DNA of 64,000 nt from Terriglobales bacterium (lineage in GTDB: Bacteria; Acidobacteriota; Terriglobia; Terriglobales; Acidobacteriaceae): positions 1-64,000 of the forward strand of contig JAATGG010000090.1 of assembly GCA_015654835.1 (NCBI GenBank). The letters are read 5' to 3'. The notes below the pieces were generated by a model. The model saw only the letters and a list, made by a program, of their open reading frames with translations. It was not told the origin of the DNA and made no database searches. The position numbers and the translations under genes are program-made. Positions 5,282-60,501 of this stretch are shown piece by piece (within the stretch, counting starts at the first letter, position 1; the number at the start of each line of letters is the position of its first letter).

Positions 5282-6631
5282 TCAGCGCTTGGGCTGGTTA
5301 CCGGCGGCATCCGCCAGCGCCGGCGGCGCGGGCAACTCAAATACTTGGATGGCGCCGGCGTTCAGAACGGCCACTCGCCGCCCCGAAGGAGAAATAGCCA
5401 CGTTGCCGCCGCCATCGAGCACCGGGCTGGCAGGGGTGACCAAGGCCCGCTTGCCGGTCGCCGCGTCCAACACCTCAACCATCTGGCCTTTTACATCCTC
5501 CCGCTCAATAGGAGAGAGGGCGTTGACCGCATGATCGATCAGGAGACTTTCGCGCACCATCCGCGAGCCGTCCGGCGCCATCACCACCATCGGCCAAATC
5601 GTCGAATCGGGCGTAACCTGCTCCCAAAGCCGGTGGCCGTTGGTCCCCAGCGCCACCAGCTTATGCCCTTGCGCTCCGCAGGTGCTCACCAGCATCTCGC
5701 TTTGAGACACGAAGTCCAGTGTAGGCGAGCAACTCGACTCCACCTTCCCCAAAACCGTGCTGCCGCCATCGAAGTGGTTCAGATTCAACAGCCAGTCCTC
5801 TCCGTCGGAGCGCAAGCCCTCCAGATAGCCATCGGCGTTGACGGGCAGATGGACAGCCGAACGAACGCGGCTCACCAGCAATACCTGTGCGGAATCGCGG
5901 CGCAGGACGCGCACCACCATCTCCGGCGGGTTACCAGGCTTCCGGTCCTCCTCACTGACACTGGCAGAAGATGCCGAGGCGGCATCGCCGGGCTTGGCAT
6001 CCGGCGGCGCGGGTTCGTGAGAATTGGTGACCAGCAACTGCTGCGAAGGGTCCAGTTCAAGCCACTGCACCGGACCGGGAAAATGCAGATAAGACTTCAA
6101 GGCCAGCGAGGAATCGCCCACTTGAAGATTGTTCCGGTCTCGCAACAGAAAGTGCCCGTCTCGCATCATCCATAGATAGCGGGACCTGTCATGGACGGTC
6201 CACAAGGCTTCGGCCCGCACCGCTCCGGTCGATACCGACAGCACCACGGCCCGAATCTGGCGCTCATCGGCCTCGTAGCTTTCCCCGGCCTGAAACTGGC
6301 GATGAATGAGTCCGGGCACGCGAAAGGAAAACAGCAGATCGTTCTCGTCAAGAAAATCGAGAGACACAAGAGTGTTGCGCTGCCCCAGATAGATCGCCCC
6401 AGGCGCCGTAAAGCCCAGCGGCTCAATGGGGATTGAAAACGAGGGAGACACTGGAGTCTTGCCGCCGAGCATGCTCGGCGAAAATTGCCTGCTGCTGTCG
6501 CGGAACGCGTCCGGTCCAAACGTGTAACTCTGTGCGGAGGCTCCGGTCATCCCCGTCATAAGCCCCCAGGCCGCGGCCAGCATCAGGGCCGCGCGCCCCC
6601 ACAATCCCGTTGAAAGAACCCCTTTTGCCAT
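5282..6631 (-). CDS. Secreted protein of unknown function, possibly propeller-like
   Basis: A 449-residue protein with a typical signal peptide (hydrophobic residues about 12-33, ending in GASAQ). The mature part has repeated strand-rich units with patterns such as LLVTNSHEP, DGYLEGLRSDGEDWLL and NVAISPSGRRVAVLNAG, which suggest a WD40/YVTN-type beta-propeller. No catalytic motif is recognisable. It ends 65 bases upstream of the phosphatase start on the same strand, so the two may be co-transcribed. The ATG at 6631 has no clear ribosome-binding site. Confidence 0.7.
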   Translation of the reverse strand: MAKGVLSTGLWGRAALMLAAAWGLMTGMTGASAQSYTFGPDAFRDSSRQFSPSMLGGKTPVSPSFSIPIEPLGFTAPGAIYLGQRNTLVSLDFLDENDLLFSFRVPGLIHRQFQAGESYEADERQIRAVVLSVSTGAVRAEALWTVHDRSRYLWMMRDGHFLLRDRNNLQVGDSSLALKSYLHFPGPVQWLELDPSQQLLVTNSHEPAPPDAKPGDAASASSASVSEEDRKPGNPPEMVVRVLRRDSAQVLLVSRVRSAVHLPVNADGYLEGLRSDGEDWLLNLNHFDGGSTVLGKVESSCSPTLDFVSQSEMLVSTCGAQGHKLVALGTNGHRLWEQVTPDSTIWPMVVMAPDGSRMVRESLLIDHAVNALSPIEREDVKGQMVEVLDAATGKRALVTPASPVLDGGGNVAISPSGRRVAVLNAGAIQVFELPAPPALADAAGNQPKR

Positions 6632-6724
6632 CGAATTGTATTTTCGCCGATGTGGCAGGCTCCTGGATGCGTATTTTCAGCCTTGGCACGGTCGGCCTGC
6701 GTATGTGCGACATTAAAAGAAGGG

Positions 6725-7681
6725 ATGACAAACGATAGAAAGACTGGCCGTCGCACCCGCTTTCTGGGCTACGGCGCCTGCGCATTGGCTGGATGTTTGT
6801 GGGGTACTGGGTTTTATTTCGGCAGGCTGGCGCTGAACGAAATGAGCGTCGAATACATGGTGCTCTACCGCTTTCTCTTTGCCTGCCTGGGCATATTGCC
6901 GGTGATTTTCCTCAATCGCGTACGGCTTACCGGCAGCGAAATTCGTCTGCTGCTGATCTCTGCCTCCCTCGGCATTCCCATTCAATTTCTGATTCAATTC
7001 CACGGTCTGGCCCTGACGACCGTCAGCCATGCGTCTCTCATGGTGGGATCGATGCCGGTCTTGCTGGCCGCCGCCGCCACGCTTTTTGGCGGCGAACGTC
7101 TGGACCGCCTGGGCTGGCTTGCCCTGGCCGGTTCCACCATCGGAGTCGCTCTGATCGTGCTCGGTGGGCATCGTGGCCCGGCCACTCACGGGCAGCCGTC
7201 GCTGGTCGGCGATCTGCTGGTCGTGGGCTCGCTCTGCACCTCGCTGGCGTGGATTCTGCTCAGCAAAAAGCTGATGCTGACGCACAGCCCGTCGGTGGTA
7301 ACCGCCTACACCATTCTGGCAGGAACGGTAATGCTGGTCGCATGGATTCTCGGTCCGCGGCTTGTAAACTCCTGGCTGCCGAATCATAGTCAGCCGGTGC
7401 CTTTTCTGTATGTGAGCCGCCTTGCCTGGGCTGCCCTGGCAGCCAGCGGTCTGCTCTGCACCGCGACCACAACCTTGCTCTGGAACTGGGGCATTCACCA
7501 CGTTCCCGCTTCGCGCGCCGGAGTTTTCCTGAATATCGAACCCGCACTCGGCTCCTGGCTTGGCGTGGAGTTGCTGGGCGAGCACCTGGGTCCCCATGCC
7601 TGGGCCGGCGGCGCGCTCATCCTAGCCGCAGCCGTGGTTCTCACCAGCCGCGGCCACGAGCCATCGGCCGTCCTGGAATAG
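6725..7681 (+). CDS. EamA/DMT-family transporter
   Basis: A 318-residue inner-membrane protein with about ten transmembrane helices in two EamA halves, the usual drug/metabolite exporter layout. Typical features are GCLWGTGFYFGRLAL at the start of the first half, the fourth-helix region TTVSHASLMVGSMPVLLA, and the second-half end PASRAGVFLNIEPALGSWLG followed by LLGEHLGPHAWAGGALI. The ATG at 6725 is preferred because GAAGGG sits directly upstream; an in-frame upstream codon at 6650 would add 25 non-hydrophobic residues. The substrate is unknown. It is divergent from the secreted protein gene. Confidence 0.88.
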   Translation: MTNDRKTGRRTRFLGYGACALAGCLWGTGFYFGRLALNEMSVEYMVLYRFLFACLGILPVIFLNRVRLTGSEIRLLLISASLGIPIQFLIQFHGLALTTVSHASLMVGSMPVLLAAAATLFGGERLDRLGWLALAGSTIGVALIVLGGHRGPATHGQPSLVGDLLVVGSLCTSLAWILLSKKLMLTHSPSVVTAYTILAGTVMLVAWILGPRLVNSWLPNHSQPVPFLYVSRLAWAALAASGLLCTATTTLLWNWGIHHVPASRAGVFLNIEPALGSWLGVELLGEHLGPHAWAGGALILAAAVVLTSRGHEPSAVLE

Positions 7682-8771: not shown

Positions 8772-9938
8772 TTATCCCTCGAATGAAAGCTGAGTGGAGG
8801 CGAAAAGCGGGGAATGCGGCTTCGGTTCCGAGGCCAGGTCATAGACCAGCCGCTCCAGCACCAGGCGCTTGTCCGGTGGAGACGAACGCAATTCCATGTC
8901 GGCGCGCGCAATCAAGCGCAACGCCCGGGTAAGATCGCGGCGGCTCTTGTAGCGGCGCGCCTGCCGAATCAAATCGTCGGCGGCAAATGGCGGCATACGA
9001 AACCCCTGCCAGAGTGCCTGCCAAATCGCCCGCGAATCGCGGACATTCTTCTCCAGAATCACCAGCATCTGCCGGAAGGTGCGCGCCAGCATATAGAGAT
9101 GGCCGATAGCCGCATCCTCGCCCGCATCCGAGCTATTCAGCAGGCCGTGCAGCAAGGCCAGTGCGCGGGCCCGGTCATGGGCGCTGATAGCGTCCGTCAG
9201 TTCGTAGAGCGAGCGCTGTTTGGCTCCCAGCACCATCGTCTCCACATCGCCCAGCGTGATGCGATCGTGGCCCAGCGTATAGAGCAGCAACTTCTCCAAC
9301 TCCGAGGCAATCAGCATCATGTCGGCGCCCAGTGCGTCCACCAGTTCGCGGGCTCCGTCCTGGTCCAGGCGAACGCCCGCGTCCTGCGCGGTCGCAATAG
9401 CCCAGCGCATGGCGTCGTCCTCGTTCACATGAGCCAGTTCCACCATGCCGCAATGTTCGCCCAGCGTTTCGGTGAGCCGCTCGAAGCGATTCTTGTCGTC
9501 CATGTCCATGCGCCGCGCGTCCGCCGGAATATGCACAAAATCTGCAACAAAAATCAACAGCGCCTGTGGATTGGGGGAGCGAAAGTAGCGGTTCAGCGCC
9601 GCAAATTCCTCTTTTTTAGCGCCGCGCGTATAAAGCTGACGCACGTTGCGCACAAAAACCACCTGAAATGGCGACATCAGCGATGGCGTCTGCGCGCGAT
9701 CCAGCACTTCAAAAATCGACGTCCCGGCCAAATCCAACTCGGAGAGGCAGAACTCCCTCAATTCCGGCGGCACAAAGCCTTTCAGAACAGCGCTGCGGCA
9801 GCGGTCCAGCAAGAAAATCTCATCGCCCGCCAGCACATAGCCGGGGCGCAGCGTTCCCTTGCCACTCGCAGCAGCCTCAATTTCTTCCTCGAATCGGCTC
9901 ACGGCCGTAAAGCCGGCGCCCCAGCGTGCAGTGCTCAC
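8772..9938 (-). CDS. holA: DNA polymerase III delta subunit
   Basis: A 388-residue clamp-loader subunit that opens the beta sliding clamp. Recognisable delta features are the N-terminal RPGYVLAGDEIFLLDRCRSAV, the segment QVVFVRNVRQLY, and the middle and C-terminal helical part (GADMMLIASELEKLLLY, ARTFRQMLVILEKNV, LTRALRLIARADMELRSSP). The GTG at 9938 is chosen because GGGGG lies about 8 nt upstream and because the frame further upstream runs through a hairpin that looks non-coding. It lies downstream of lptE, a very common pairing. Confidence 0.9.
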   Translation of the reverse strand: MSTARWGAGFTAVSRFEEEIEAAASGKGTLRPGYVLAGDEIFLLDRCRSAVLKGFVPPELREFCLSELDLAGTSIFEVLDRAQTPSLMSPFQVVFVRNVRQLYTRGAKKEEFAALNRYFRSPNPQALLIFVADFVHIPADARRMDMDDKNRFERLTETLGEHCGMVELAHVNEDDAMRWAIATAQDAGVRLDQDGARELVDALGADMMLIASELEKLLLYTLGHDRITLGDVETMVLGAKQRSLYELTDAISAHDRARALALLHGLLNSSDAGEDAAIGHLYMLARTFRQMLVILEKNVRDSRAIWQALWQGFRMPPFAADDLIRQARRYKSRRDLTRALRLIARADMELRSSPPDKRLVLERLVYDLASEPKPHSPLFASTQLSFEG

Positions 9939-55370: not shown

Positions 55371-56516
55371 TTGACACAATCGGCCCCGCGCGCCCCCGGC
55401 CTGGACACGCTGCGCAGTCTGGCAATCGTTTCCGTTATCGTTTTTCACGTCTATGGATTTCATGGTCCCGACACCTTGCCGCAGATGTTGCAGCCGGCAG
55501 CAAGGCTAGGATGGATGGGCGTGGATCTGTTCTTCGTTCTCAGCGGATACCTGATCGGCTCTCAGTTGATGCGGCCCTATGTTGCCGGGGAACGGCCGCA
55601 GTTGTGGGCGTTCTATCGCAACCGACTGTACAGGGTGTTGCCGGCTTACCTGGCGGTGCTGGCACTCTATTATGTTTTGCCGGTGTGGCGCGAGGAGACG
55701 AGGCTTTCGCCGCTGTGGGAGTATCTTACCTTCACCGTAAATCTGTTTATCGACTATAGCGCCAATGGAGCCTTTTCGCATGTGTGGTCGCTGTGCGTGG
55801 AGGAACACTTCTATCTGCTGCTGCCGCTGATTTTGTTGCTCATGATGCGCAGGCCGTCGCTGCGCAGAACGGTTGCGGTGCTGGCAGGGCTGGTGCTGTT
55901 CGGCATTTGCTTGCGGTCGTTCATTCTGTTTCATTGGCTGAGGCCTCTGGAGACAGCGGGGCATGGCTTTGCGATTCCCTACCTCGAGCGCATCTATTAC
56001 CCGACCTATAGCCGCCTGGATGGGTTGCTGGCCGGCATCACGCTGGCGCTGGTGAAGACGTTTCGACCGCTGTGGTGGAGTGCGTTGGCCAAGCGGGGAC
56101 ACCTGCTGCTGGTTATGGGCGTCGGGCTGACCGGTGCGGCGATCTGGCTGTTCAAGGACCGCTGGCAATCGGTGTTCGGCGTGCAGGCATGGGGCGTGGC
56201 GGTTGGGTTTCCCCTGCTGTCGGCCGGGCTGGGACTGGTGGTGGCTTCGGCGCTGAGCGACAACTGCGTGTTGAGCCGCTACAAGGTGCCGGGAGCAAAG
56301 CTGATCGCCACGCTGGCCTACAGCCTCTATCTCACGCATAAAGAGCTGATTCATTTGATGGACCTTTGCTTTCCGGCTTTGGCGCGGGCCGGGATGTATC
56401 CATGGCTGGGCGCGTTTGCGGCGTGTTGCCTAGTTGTGTCGGGCGTTCTGTACGTATGCGTGGAGCGGCCGTTCCTGTTGTTGCGGGATCGGCGGCGCGT
56501 GCGGTCCACGGTGTAG
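55371..56516 (+). CDS. Acyltransferase family 3 membrane protein
   Basis: A 381-residue integral membrane O-acyltransferase with about ten helices. The catalytic His is in SVIVFHVYGF, the R/K-x10-H region is followed by WMGVDLFFVLSGYLIG, RNRLYRVLPAYLAVLALYY, FSHVWSLCVEEHFYLLLPL, and LAYSLYLTHKELIHL. These proteins acetylate or succinylate surface glycans. The start is a TTG at 55371 preceded by GAGG. It is separated from GH3 by a strong hairpin and therefore probably has its own promoter. Confidence 0.9.
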   Translation: MTQSAPRAPGLDTLRSLAIVSVIVFHVYGFHGPDTLPQMLQPAARLGWMGVDLFFVLSGYLIGSQLMRPYVAGERPQLWAFYRNRLYRVLPAYLAVLALYYVLPVWREETRLSPLWEYLTFTVNLFIDYSANGAFSHVWSLCVEEHFYLLLPLILLLMMRRPSLRRTVAVLAGLVLFGICLRSFILFHWLRPLETAGHGFAIPYLERIYYPTYSRLDGLLAGITLALVKTFRPLWWSALAKRGHLLLVMGVGLTGAAIWLFKDRWQSVFGVQAWGVAVGFPLLSAGLGLVVASALSDNCVLSRYKVPGAKLIATLAYSLYLTHKELIHLMDLCFPALARAGMYPWLGAFAACCLVVSGVLYVCVERPFLLLRDRRRVRSTV

Positions 56517-56856
56517 TTTCTGCCACGAAAAACGAACAAAAGGAGAATCGCCCTCCCCCGGGGGGGGGGGCTGAATCATGCCCTGCTACAAGACTCTTTG
56601 TGCTGTGGCCGTCCAAAAACACTGATCTATGCGATCAGTTCCAGTGTGTGCTGATGAGGCGGTATTTTGTGCAATGCGCACCGCGGTTGTGCGCGGATCG
56701 GGGAGGTGTGGATGGACAGCGGAGGACCGATGGAGCCGGTGCATTGGGGTTCGTGCTCTCCCAGGTTATGCGCAAAAACGCGCCGAACCTGGGGCACCCG
56801 GTCGGTGTGCTGGAAGGAGTTTTTGAAACATGGAGCACGCTGGTCCACTGGCGAAT
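56517..56856. other. Intergenic region holding G/C run and repeat copy 1
   Basis: About 340 bases without a supported gene. It contains C5 followed by G11 (56555-56570) and the first copy of the long direct repeat (56721-56836). Open frames passing through it are due to the repeat and resemble no protein family. Confidence 0.6.
56721..56836 (+). repeat. Direct repeat copy 1 with internal hairpin
   Basis: A 116-base segment nearly identical to 57881-57998. Its core (56753-56797) is an imperfect palindrome: gtgc, then cccaggtt (56760-56767) pairing with aacctggg (56786-56793), with inner gcgc pairs, and gcac at the end. This resembles a REP-type dispersed element. Confidence 0.85.
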
Positions 56857-57657
56857 TTACTTTACCAACTCAAGTGCTTCTTTCAGTACATCGATGGTAT
56901 TTTGATCTGGTTGGCCATCCTCAAAATTCGAAATCACACGGAGCGCATCCTCAATTTGAGAGCGTGCATCGTCCAAACTGACATAGCACTTCCTTTTCAC
57001 TGATTCAAGGATGGCTATTGCCGCCTGATAAAACACGAATGGCTGAGATTCTGTCTTTATACGTTCGATCAACCACTTGAAGTATCTAGCCCTAGGTTCG
57101 ACTTGGAGCATACAGATGGCAGCGAGTCGCCTTCCCACAGAATCAGACCGGGTAAGTTCTGTCCGAAGTCCTAAGCCCGCAATGGCTAAAGTTCGCATTC
57201 CGGCTGCAATTTCGTTCATCTTTCGGGTTCGAAGACCACTGGGAGGAATGTTCGCACGGACAATTTCGTACTCTCTTGCCAACTCATAAATCTCACGCCG
57301 AACAGTATCCCGAACCGTTGACTCTGGAATCCCTGCCCTATAAACCTTAGTGCGCAAGGTCTCAGCTGCTCGTACTTGATTCGGCGGGACCGATTTCGGC
57401 GGGTCGCTGTCGCTTATCTGAGTGCTCGCTTCAATGACGGCCTCTTTTACTTCGTCTTCGAAAGCTTCTAATTCGAGCTGACCAACTTTAACCTTCTTGG
57501 CCAGGGAAACTTTACGCCCACAAACTTTTAGTAGAAATGCGATTCTCACTCTATGCACAAACAAAAACCATAGAGCAACTGCAGGCCACGCAACCGCATT
57601 CAATATGGCGGCGATACTTGAAAGTAACGCCGCCCACGATGCAGGCTGATCAGTCAA
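56857..57657 (-). CDS. Orphan membrane-anchored protein between direct repeats
   Basis: A 266-residue protein. One or two hydrophobic stretches (residues about 8-36, WAALLSSIAAILNAVAWPAV and WFLFVHRVRIAFLL) are followed by a long helical cytoplasmic part rich in charged residues (for example QLELEAFEDEVKEAVIEA and ESTVRDTVRREIYELAREYE). No known family recognised. The start is a TTG at 57657 with a strong GGAGG about 5 bases upstream, which supports real translation. Base composition is clearly lower in G+C than both neighbours. It fills most of the 1-kb space between two direct repeats, which suggests transfer as a unit. Confidence 0.7.
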   Translation of the reverse strand: MTDQPASWAALLSSIAAILNAVAWPAVALWFLFVHRVRIAFLLKVCGRKVSLAKKVKVGQLELEAFEDEVKEAVIEASTQISDSDPPKSVPPNQVRAAETLRTKVYRAGIPESTVRDTVRREIYELAREYEIVRANIPPSGLRTRKMNEIAAGMRTLAIAGLGLRTELTRSDSVGRRLAAICMLQVEPRARYFKWLIERIKTESQPFVFYQAAIAILESVKRKCYVSLDDARSQIEDALRVISNFEDGQPDQNTIDVLKEALELVK

Positions 57658-58035
57658 CTGAGCCTCCGAAATATAGAGCGCGAAATAATCCCTGAATTGA
57701 GTTTAGACATATAGTATATGATCCGCTTCCTTGCCCCGCGAGAGAACGAACATCTGAGGTCTAGATTTTACACAGAGTAATCCGTAGCACGGTTAAGAAA
57801 CATAAGTTGCTTGCAACAGGCGATACCTTCGGGGACCGGAACTGGTAATCCTGACAGACCGCTTGTGCAAAGCAGATCTCGGAGGCCTGATGGAGCCGGC
57901 GCATTGGGGTTCGTGTTCTCCCAGGTTATGCGCAAAAAACGCGCCGAACCTGGGGCACCCGGTCGGTGTGCTGGATGGAGTTTTTTAAGGCATGGAGCGT
58001 GCATCTCGATCAGCGGCCAAGGTAGAGATTGCCAG
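57658..58035. other. Intergenic region holding orphan-gene promoter and repeat copy 2
   Basis: About 378 bases. A 13-bp palindrome catatagtatatg (57708-57720) lies just upstream of the orphan gene and could be its operator or -10 region. Repeat copy 2 fills 57881-57998. The rest shows nothing recognisable. Confidence 0.5.
57881..57998 (+). repeat. Direct repeat copy 2 with internal hairpin
   Basis: Same orientation as copy 1 and about 1.05 kb downstream of its end. It differs by scattered substitutions and one or two extra bases in A- and T-runs. The palindrome core (cccaggtt 57920-57927 with aacctggg 57947-57954) is conserved. Confidence 0.85.
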
Positions 58036-60501
58036 TTACTCGCTGTCGGGGGGGACTTGCTCCAGGAGGCGGCTCCAGGTTTTTTGGTTTTTGCGGAAGC
58101 CTTTTTTCAGGTCCTCCAAGATGCGCTCGAAGTCTGTATTGGTGCGGAGATTGTTCCAGGCGGGGTTTTTCTGGAACCAGGGGTAGTTCTCGTTGCCTAG
58201 ATAGATGGCGCGGCGGAGCCAGTGGAGGGCTTCGCTGGAGTCGCCTTCGACGGCGAAGTAGGTAGCGAGGCGGTAGGCCATTTCGCTATCGGCTTCGGCG
58301 GCGGCCAGGGTGTCGTCTTTGAGCAGGGCGGCGGCGCGCTCACGGTCGCCTGCCTGCACGTAGCAGAGGGCGAGGGTGGGCACGGCGATGCGCAACCACT
58401 GGTCGTCGCGGATGACGCCTTCCAAGATCTCGATGGCTGCGGACAGATTGCCGAGGCGCATCTGCTGATATCCAGCCGAGGTGCGGAGCAGGGGATGGCG
58501 CGGCTCAAGGGCCAGACCTTTTTCCAACTCGTCGCCGGCCAGCTCGATCTGATTTTGATAGTGGTAGACGCGGGCGCGGTGGTTGTAAAGGATGGCCGCG
58601 TTGGCGGGGTTGAGCTTGAGGGCGCGATTGAACTGATGGAGCGCTTCCTCGTACATGCCGTCGCCGCGCAGGGCCATGCCAGCGACCATGTGAACGTTCC
58701 AGTCGTTGCTGGCTCCCGAGAGAAGATTGGCGATGCCGTGACGGGCCGACTCTTTTTCACCACGGGAGAGCAGCATGTAAATGCGGTAGAGGTTGGCCTC
58801 GGTGGAGGCGGGGTCGAGCTTGAGGGCCTCGTCGAAGGCGCGGCGGGCGCGCATGACGTGGATCTGGCCGCCGAAGCCGTGGCGCACGTATTGAAGCTCG
58901 GCGATGCCGAGGCCGCTCCAGCCGGCGGAAAACCTGGCATCGGTGGCGGTGACGCTGGAAAAGAGCGCGTGGGCGCGGTCGAGGTCGGCGCGGGCGCCGG
59001 TGCGGACCATGAAGGAGCTGAGCAGGGCGCGGGCCTGGAGATACTCCTCACTGACGGGGCCTGGAAGCGAGCCGTCGCGAGCGGCGGGGCGCTGGATATC
59101 GATTTGATCGCCGGCGCTGAGGCCGTGCAGGGCGGCGAAAACCTCATTGGAGATTTCGGTCTGGACGGCGATGAGGTCGAGCGAGGCGACGCGGATGGCT
59201 CCGCCGGAGCGGACGCTGAGAGAGGCGACGTCGAGCAGTTGCCAGTTGAGGTCGAAGCCGTTTTCAGAGCGCAGGAAGCTGCCGGCGAGGACAAAGGACA
59301 CGAGCAGGCGCTGGCCGACGGAGAGCGGGTCCATCTGCGCGATGGGCAGGGACATGAGGGTGCTGGAGGGGCGGACGACGAGAGCGGGAATACGGGCCAG
59401 GCGGGCGGCGATGGCGTCGGCCAGGGCGAATCCATAGAGGGGCGCGACCTCGGTAGCGCCGAGATTGGCGAAGGGCAGAACCACAAGGGAATTCTGCTTG
59501 GCGCGGTCGCCGGCGGACTCACGGAAACGCTCGGCGAGCATGGAGAGGAAACCGGTGGTGCGCTTTTCCGCCTCGGCACCGGTGGTGGGCAGGTTAGCCG
59601 CGGCGTCGCCGGGAATAATGCCGGTCTCGATCTGCAGGGCCTTCATGATGGTCTTGAGGGCCTCGCGGACTTCGGCGGCGGAGGCGTAGCGGGCGCCAGG
59701 ATTCTTTTCAAGGCAGGCGCCGATGACGCTTTTTAGCTCGACGGCGATGCCGGGAACGGTTTCACTGAGGTCGGGCGGATCGGAGAACTGGATGGCGCGG
59801 ATGGCCTGGAAATCCTCAGCATCGGGGCGGGAAAAGGGGTGGCGTCCGCTGGCCAGCTCATAGAGGATGACGCCGAGAGCCCAGATATCGGACTGGACGC
59901 TGGACTGGCCGGTGACGAACTGCTCGGGGGCCATGTAGCGGATGGTGCCGCCGCGGGCGGTGTAGGTAGCCGCCATGGAAGCATCTTTGGCGAGCGCGGG
60001 CTTGGCCGGGTCGAAGGTGGCGTCTTCGGGGCTGAGGCGGCGGGCGAGGCCGAAGTCAAGAATCTTGACGAGGCCGCCGTCGGTCAGCATGACATTTTGG
60101 GGCTTGAGGTCGCGATGGAAGATGCCCAGAGCGTGCGCGGCCTGGAGACCGTCGGCGATCTGGATGCCGACCGAGAGGACGAGCTGGAGGCTGGCGGGGC
60201 CGCGGGCGATCAGCGTATCCAGCGACTGGCCGGGCACGTATTGCATGACGATGTAGCCCTCGTCGCCGCTTTCGCCGACTTCATAGATGGCGCAGACGTT
60301 GGGGTGCTCGATGGCCGAGGCCATGCGGGCTTCACGCAGCACGGTGGAGCGCAATTGCTGGGCCGAGAGCAGGCCGGTGCGCAGAATCTTCAAGACCACC
60401 GGGCGTTGCAGCAATGTGTCGTTGGCGAGGTAGACGACCCCGCTGCCGCCGGCACCTAGTTTGCGAAGAATTTCGTAATGTTCGATCGTCCTACGCTTCA
60501 T
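58036..60501 (-). CDS. Serine/threonine protein kinase with TolB-like and TPR regions
   Basis: An 821-residue protein. The kinase domain (about 9-275) has the glycine loop [12 protein letters not shown], Lys38 in VVLKIL, the catalytic loop [10 protein letters not shown], the DFG motif in ILDFGLARR and RYMAPEQF. A TolB/FlgO-like module follows ([14 protein letters not shown], about 345-460). The C-terminal third holds TPRs (for example [20 protein letters not shown]). This kinase-TolB-TPR arrangement is common in Acidobacteria. No transmembrane helix was seen, so a cytoplasmic location is likely. The substrate is unknown. Confidence 0.93.

Follow-up and report, generated by a model that had tools for sequence, protein, structure and literature searches.

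A single gene enclosed by two direct copies of a long repeat raises the question of whether it is the cargo of an insertion cassette or a gene that has come to lie beside elements with a separate history. Such an arrangement occurs in the window, that is, the whole 64,000-nucleotide stretch of DNA that was analysed, which belongs to a draft genome of Terracidiphilus (in GTDB terms; 4.71 Mb in 280 contigs, 92% complete). The locus as a whole is probably best read as an acquired gene, itself probably of defence or signalling function, that sits beside two resident REP-like, RAYT-linked elements.

Both repeat copies are REP-like hairpin elements on the plus strand. Copy 1 spans positions 56720-56837 with a hairpin core at 56759-56798, and copy 2 spans positions 57880-57998 with a hairpin core at 57919-57959. 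They measure ~118 bases each, share the same orientation, and are identical in 109/120 aligned columns (91-92%), so the near-identical direct repeats that the preliminary description had placed around one gene are real. Measured from the stop codons, the near end of copy 1 lies 19 bp beyond the 266-aa gene and that of copy 2 lies 37 bp beyond a gene for a TPR-repeat Ser/Thr kinase (58036-60501, minus strand), in both cases antisense to the gene, and each of these two tandem minus-strand genes is thus equipped with one element at its 3′ end. The pair is spaced at 1.16 kb and accounts for two of only five core copies in the genome, for which number the chance of two random copies lying ≤1.2 kb apart is estimated at ~0.5% (10 pairs × 2 × 1200 / 4.7 Mb). 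The window copies are also the closest in the genome (91% to each other vs 78% to the copy on contig C142). A run of ~11 G residues at positions 56550-56575, between an acyltransferase gene and repeat copy 1, represents either a hypervariable tract or an assembly error.

The gene between the repeats (56857-57657, minus strand) encodes a membrane-anchored protein of 266 codons with a TTG start, preceded five bases upstream by the GGAGG that had been taken as the mark of a strong start. The DNA that separates the two copies (56838-57879) is taken as the acquired segment and has a G+C content of 48.1%, the second lowest among 1260 windows of the same size (mean 57.3%, s.d. 4.2). Third-position G+C is 0.45 for the 266-aa gene vs 0.83 for the kinase and 0.76 for the Acyltransferase_3 neighbour (55371-56516, plus strand), and the AT-richness relative to both flanks, noted at first sight, is therefore borne out. 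The kinase is a genus-conserved neighbour, found in 30/36 same-genus genomes searched, while the acyltransferase is accessory (3/80 genomes of the genus). The 266-aa gene lies beside the kinase in none of 20 congeners. Composition and distribution together show that the gene is foreign, recently acquired, and absent at this position in relatives.

The repeats belong to a family of short hairpin elements that is found throughout Terracidiphilus and is associated with Y1 transposases of the RAYT/TIRYT type. In the hairpin core, a frame of constant sequence encloses the stem (TTCGTGCTATCCCA - stem - TGGGGCACCC). In a set of 86 distinct stems, none of 1000 shuffles reached the pairing frequency seen at the first nine opposed positions, where several pair types occur, which indicates that compensatory changes maintain the stem. 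The pattern TCCCAN{16,46}TGGGGCACC is present in 79/79 Terracidiphilus genomes with up to 225 copies each, compared to 0-2 matches per strand for a reversed-pattern control. Copy number has a median of 46 (59 genus genomes) and spreads ~hundredfold between congeners. The five core copies of the source genome comprise the window pair, similar copies on contigs C142 and C11, and a core-pattern match on C225. The supposition that the repeats are dispersed is supported. A window copy used as the query found no match in 40 genomes outside the genus, and one clear copy occurs in the genome of an “Acidobacteria bacterium” (L119), next to a homologue of the window's 266-aa gene. An Rfam search returned no match.

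Two further arrangements of the repeats are of note. Genome G008 harbors head-to-tail arrays of ~9 copies (L081:8008-8851) and ~12 copies (L082:8419-9478). On contig C1 of genome G055, repeat orientation differs between the contig halves (17:9 vs 2:14; Fisher p 0.0012, with break points chosen post hoc), a switch that an element tied to replication direction would show.

The link to RAYT-type transposases is apparent around the genes for a 193-aa, RAYT-type Y1 protein, present in 39/59 genus genomes. At 30 such loci the repeat scores 47 hits over 93 kb, vs 2 hits over 239 kb at 20 kinase loci; the comparison relies on a profile built from genus copies, and its background is a single type of locus, the kinase region, instead of random DNA. 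Hits are found at 21/30 of the RAYT loci, and the usual layout is one copy directly before and one directly after the gene, facing outward. Repeat copies per genome increase with RAYT gene number (Spearman 0.37, p=0.004). The source genome has no match to a RAYT of this class at E≤1e-20 in its 92% complete draft of 280 contigs, consistent with its low repeat copy number.

Like RAYT-associated REPs and TIRYT-associated repeats, the elements of this family are short imperfect palindromes with many intergenic copies, form clusters and arrays, often lie beyond stop codons, and flank Y1 (HUH) tyrosine transposase genes. The same transposase-flanking arrangement has been published for REPtrons and TIRtrons, including an acidobacterial TIRYT group (PMC3733652) with members in Koribacter, Granulicella, Terriglobus, and Acidobacterium (PMC3733652; PMC6006769), and the class distribution of RAYTs is given in PMC6006769. 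Published REPs are likewise placed 3′ of genes, and REP families without a resident RAYT are known (PMC3733652). Unlike RAYT-associated REPs, the window family combines the constant frame with a freely varying, compensated stem, lacks the exact GGGGWSAS motif, and has few copies and no RAYT match of that class in the source genome. The GTAG or CGTC tag is also absent from the hairpin foot, with 81 copies showing feet of the TATCCCA/TGGGGCACCC type. As both tags are missing, the family is termed REP-like and stands outside those superfamilies.

Relatives with one repeat and no gene, the comparison proposed in the preliminary description, do exist at the kinase 3′ end. A single repeat without an insert is found there in G005 (L069:10369-10431) in the same orientation and in G034 (L058:3087-3154) in the opposite orientation. 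The exact empty site, i.e., the acyltransferase-kinase junction without the gene, was found in none of the genomes searched. Elsewhere in Terracidiphilus, it is common for two co-oriented copies at a distance of 0.6-3 kb to enclose one ordinary gene whose G+C is normal. The survey behind this statement covers 19 regions, 18 from four congeners and one from the source genome, two of which hold RAYT genes; the regions were picked for close pairs and thus establish that such pairs occur commonly but give no measure of their frequency. The genes between the copies in these 19 regions are mostly ordinary and of normal G+C, by which direct repeats are rejected as a general sign of a cassette. The repeat pair alone is hence no evidence of one, and the earlier suggestion that direct repeats around a cargo gene point to a mobile cassette is not supported; the repeats behave as REP-like, RAYT-linked elements.

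A cassette at this particular locus is nevertheless possible, albeit not favoured. It would consist of a circle or fragment that carried the gene with one repeat, integrated at a resident repeat through a RecA-type crossover or by a RAYT that took the co-oriented hairpins for a left and a right end, and could be lost in the same way. The mutual closeness of the window copies, their 1.16 kb spacing in a genome with five core copies, the counterparts of the kinase 3′-end copy in relatives that lack the gene, and a repeat copy ~90 bp upstream of the L119 homologue all argue for such an event. Set against them are the co-oriented pairs around single housekeeping genes of normal G+C in the genus, the outward rather than co-oriented bracketing of RAYT genes, the lack of a match to a RAYT of this class in the draft source genome, and the homologues in L119, L120, G005, and G158, none of which has flanking direct repeats, so that the cassette is judged unlikely. 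A further reading, judged very unlikely, is that two co-oriented RAYT-type hairpins can delimit a compound single-strand element with an unrelated gene as its cargo, which would make REP-like repeats vehicles of defence genes between Acidobacteria. An integron-type gene cassette with attC-like recombination sites is suggested by the occurrence of a single gene between similar hairpin-bearing sites. By inspection, however, the repeats offer GTTATGC and GCCGAAC in place of an RYYYAAC/GTTRRRY core pair, and copies elsewhere adjoin ordinary genes and RAYTs with no cassette array, which makes this origin extremely improbable.

The repeats may instead be selected 3′-end elements that serve as bidirectional terminators or mRNA stabilisers, in which case the pair would mark the ends of two genes. 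This function, which would be compatible with the acquired-gene reading rather than exclusive of it, agrees with the position of both copies 19-37 bp beyond a stop codon, the frequent occurrence of copies near gene ends elsewhere, the same 3′ placement of published REPs (PMC3733652), and the conservation of the stem by compensation. The RAYT linkage and the 9-12-copy head-to-tail arrays of G008, on the other hand, look like proliferation, and copy number differs ~hundredfold between congeners, on account of which selection for a 3′-end role appears somewhat doubtful.

Under the preferred reading of an acquired gene beside resident REP-like elements, the hairpins would have been placed in trans by a RAYT via single-strand, IS200/IS605-like mobilisation. 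The kinase-proximal element would have been resident first, the foreign gene would then have entered the spacer, and the second copy may have arisen with the gene, either through a local duplication event or when an incoming element recombined there. As the window pair is the closest in the genome (91% vs 78%), it may stem from a duplication in place, or the gene may have come in with one copy that recombined with the resident one. Points that weigh against the preferred reading are the lack of a RAYT match of this class in the draft source genome, the absent GTAG and CGTC tags, and the lack of an exact empty site among the genomes searched.

The 266-aa protein was initially described as an orphan, which it is not: homologues over most of its length occur in 9/300 Acidobacteriaceae genomes. 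Near full-length homologues are present in dw_441 (L116/L118), L119, L120, G427, G477, G596, T. gabretensis (L121), and G430; a first scan of contigs gave no match, and a profile scan of contigs gave four homologue loci. The family is uncharacterised, rare, and patchily distributed in Acidobacteriaceae. The low-G+C singleton copies are those of L119, L120, and G430 besides the window gene. Several homologues have native G+C, including an efp-like locus and that of G158, and three of the native-G+C homologues have common neighbours resembling trpE and efp, which indicates that the family is not purely mobile. In the G430 homologue (L135:5540-7718), a gene similar to IS256-type transposases (5873-7090) interrupts the sequence. 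In L119, a near-perfect 21-base palindrome lies ~90 bp beyond the homologue stop (8909-8956), and its ends resemble the GGCACCC foot of the repeat family.

In the family alignment, the membrane anchor precedes a conserved core marked by EYE..R, RT..M, and G.RL.A motifs, and full-length homologues share both this anchor and the HEAT-like helical domain. The protein layout consists of one N-terminal membrane helix, a long helix, and a HEAT-like helical C-terminal domain, and the AlphaFold2 model is all helical with a mean pLDDT of 80. As in HEAT/armadillo domains, a paired-helix solenoid is predicted for residues ~76-266, and a Rhizobium relative has a weak HEAT_2 match (E 0.0011). The best structural neighbours of the C-terminal solenoid are HEAT/ARM proteins with Z ~10, which is below the tool's meaningful level for helical repeats and could reflect a common helical arrangement; the window protein itself has no Pfam HEAT match, and the modelled HEAT/ARM likeness is only suggestive. 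Searches of the protein against Pfam, PADLOC, NCBIfam, and PHROGs returned nothing significant, those against PDB sequences nothing convincing, Foldseek against the PDB no match at E≤0.001, and viral and phage collections no relatives. A PHROG holin match (E 0.25) was disregarded, and an ATP synthase b match in the PDB (E 0.0012) spans the anchor and long helix only. The earlier statement that the protein belongs to no described family thus stands for the named databases and falls in that a real family exists, part of which is fused to a phage-defence candidate.

The link of the domain to defence comes from one such fusion, encoded on a Rhizobium leguminosarum plasmid (CP050566.1), in which the domain of the window protein recurs with 43% identity over 96 residues (E 2e-13). 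The N-terminal domain of the fusion matches PDC-S60, a phage-defence candidate (E 1.9e-41), and weakly DUF4062 (E 0.18). DUF4062 proteins are described in a preprint as antiphage TIR-like NADases (Swarozyc; PMC13174449). The island around the fusion (L113; CP050566.1, 32929-49219) also encodes SLATT, patatin, TPR-S, and two TIR-TPR proteins. In Rhizobium, the helical domain shared with the window protein lies C-terminal to a PDC-S60/DUF4062-like domain; the window protein has a membrane helix in place of the latter and no partner gene. Neither Pfam nor PADLOC matches a DUF4062-like NADase domain in the window protein, which has only the C-terminal domain in common with the fusion. At the membrane, the cytoplasmic HEAT-like part would serve to bind a ligand or a partner, and the Rhizobium version would have the same domain joined instead to a DUF4062/PDC-S60-type, putatively TIR-like NADase, domain. 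Tentatively, the window protein may act in a conflict or signalling pathway as a helical adaptor or effector tethered to the membrane; of the toxin, signalling, or defence role proposed at the outset, signalling or defence gains only circumstantial support.

Contig C142 of the source genome (L078:11654-13459) carries a GmrSD_N-type gene of low G+C (40-49%) that adjoins the third full repeat copy and matches NsnA and PD-T4-2_A in PADLOC. This is one case of a repeat beside a low-G+C GmrSD-type gene and not a pattern.

A common soil genus thus harbors a large, RAYT-tied family of hairpin repeats in which a constant frame encloses a fast-changing, compensated stem, and which is a natural set of variants well suited to tests of RAYT recognition. 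The membrane-anchored, patchily distributed protein family, with its domain fused to an antiphage candidate, is testable for a role in defence.
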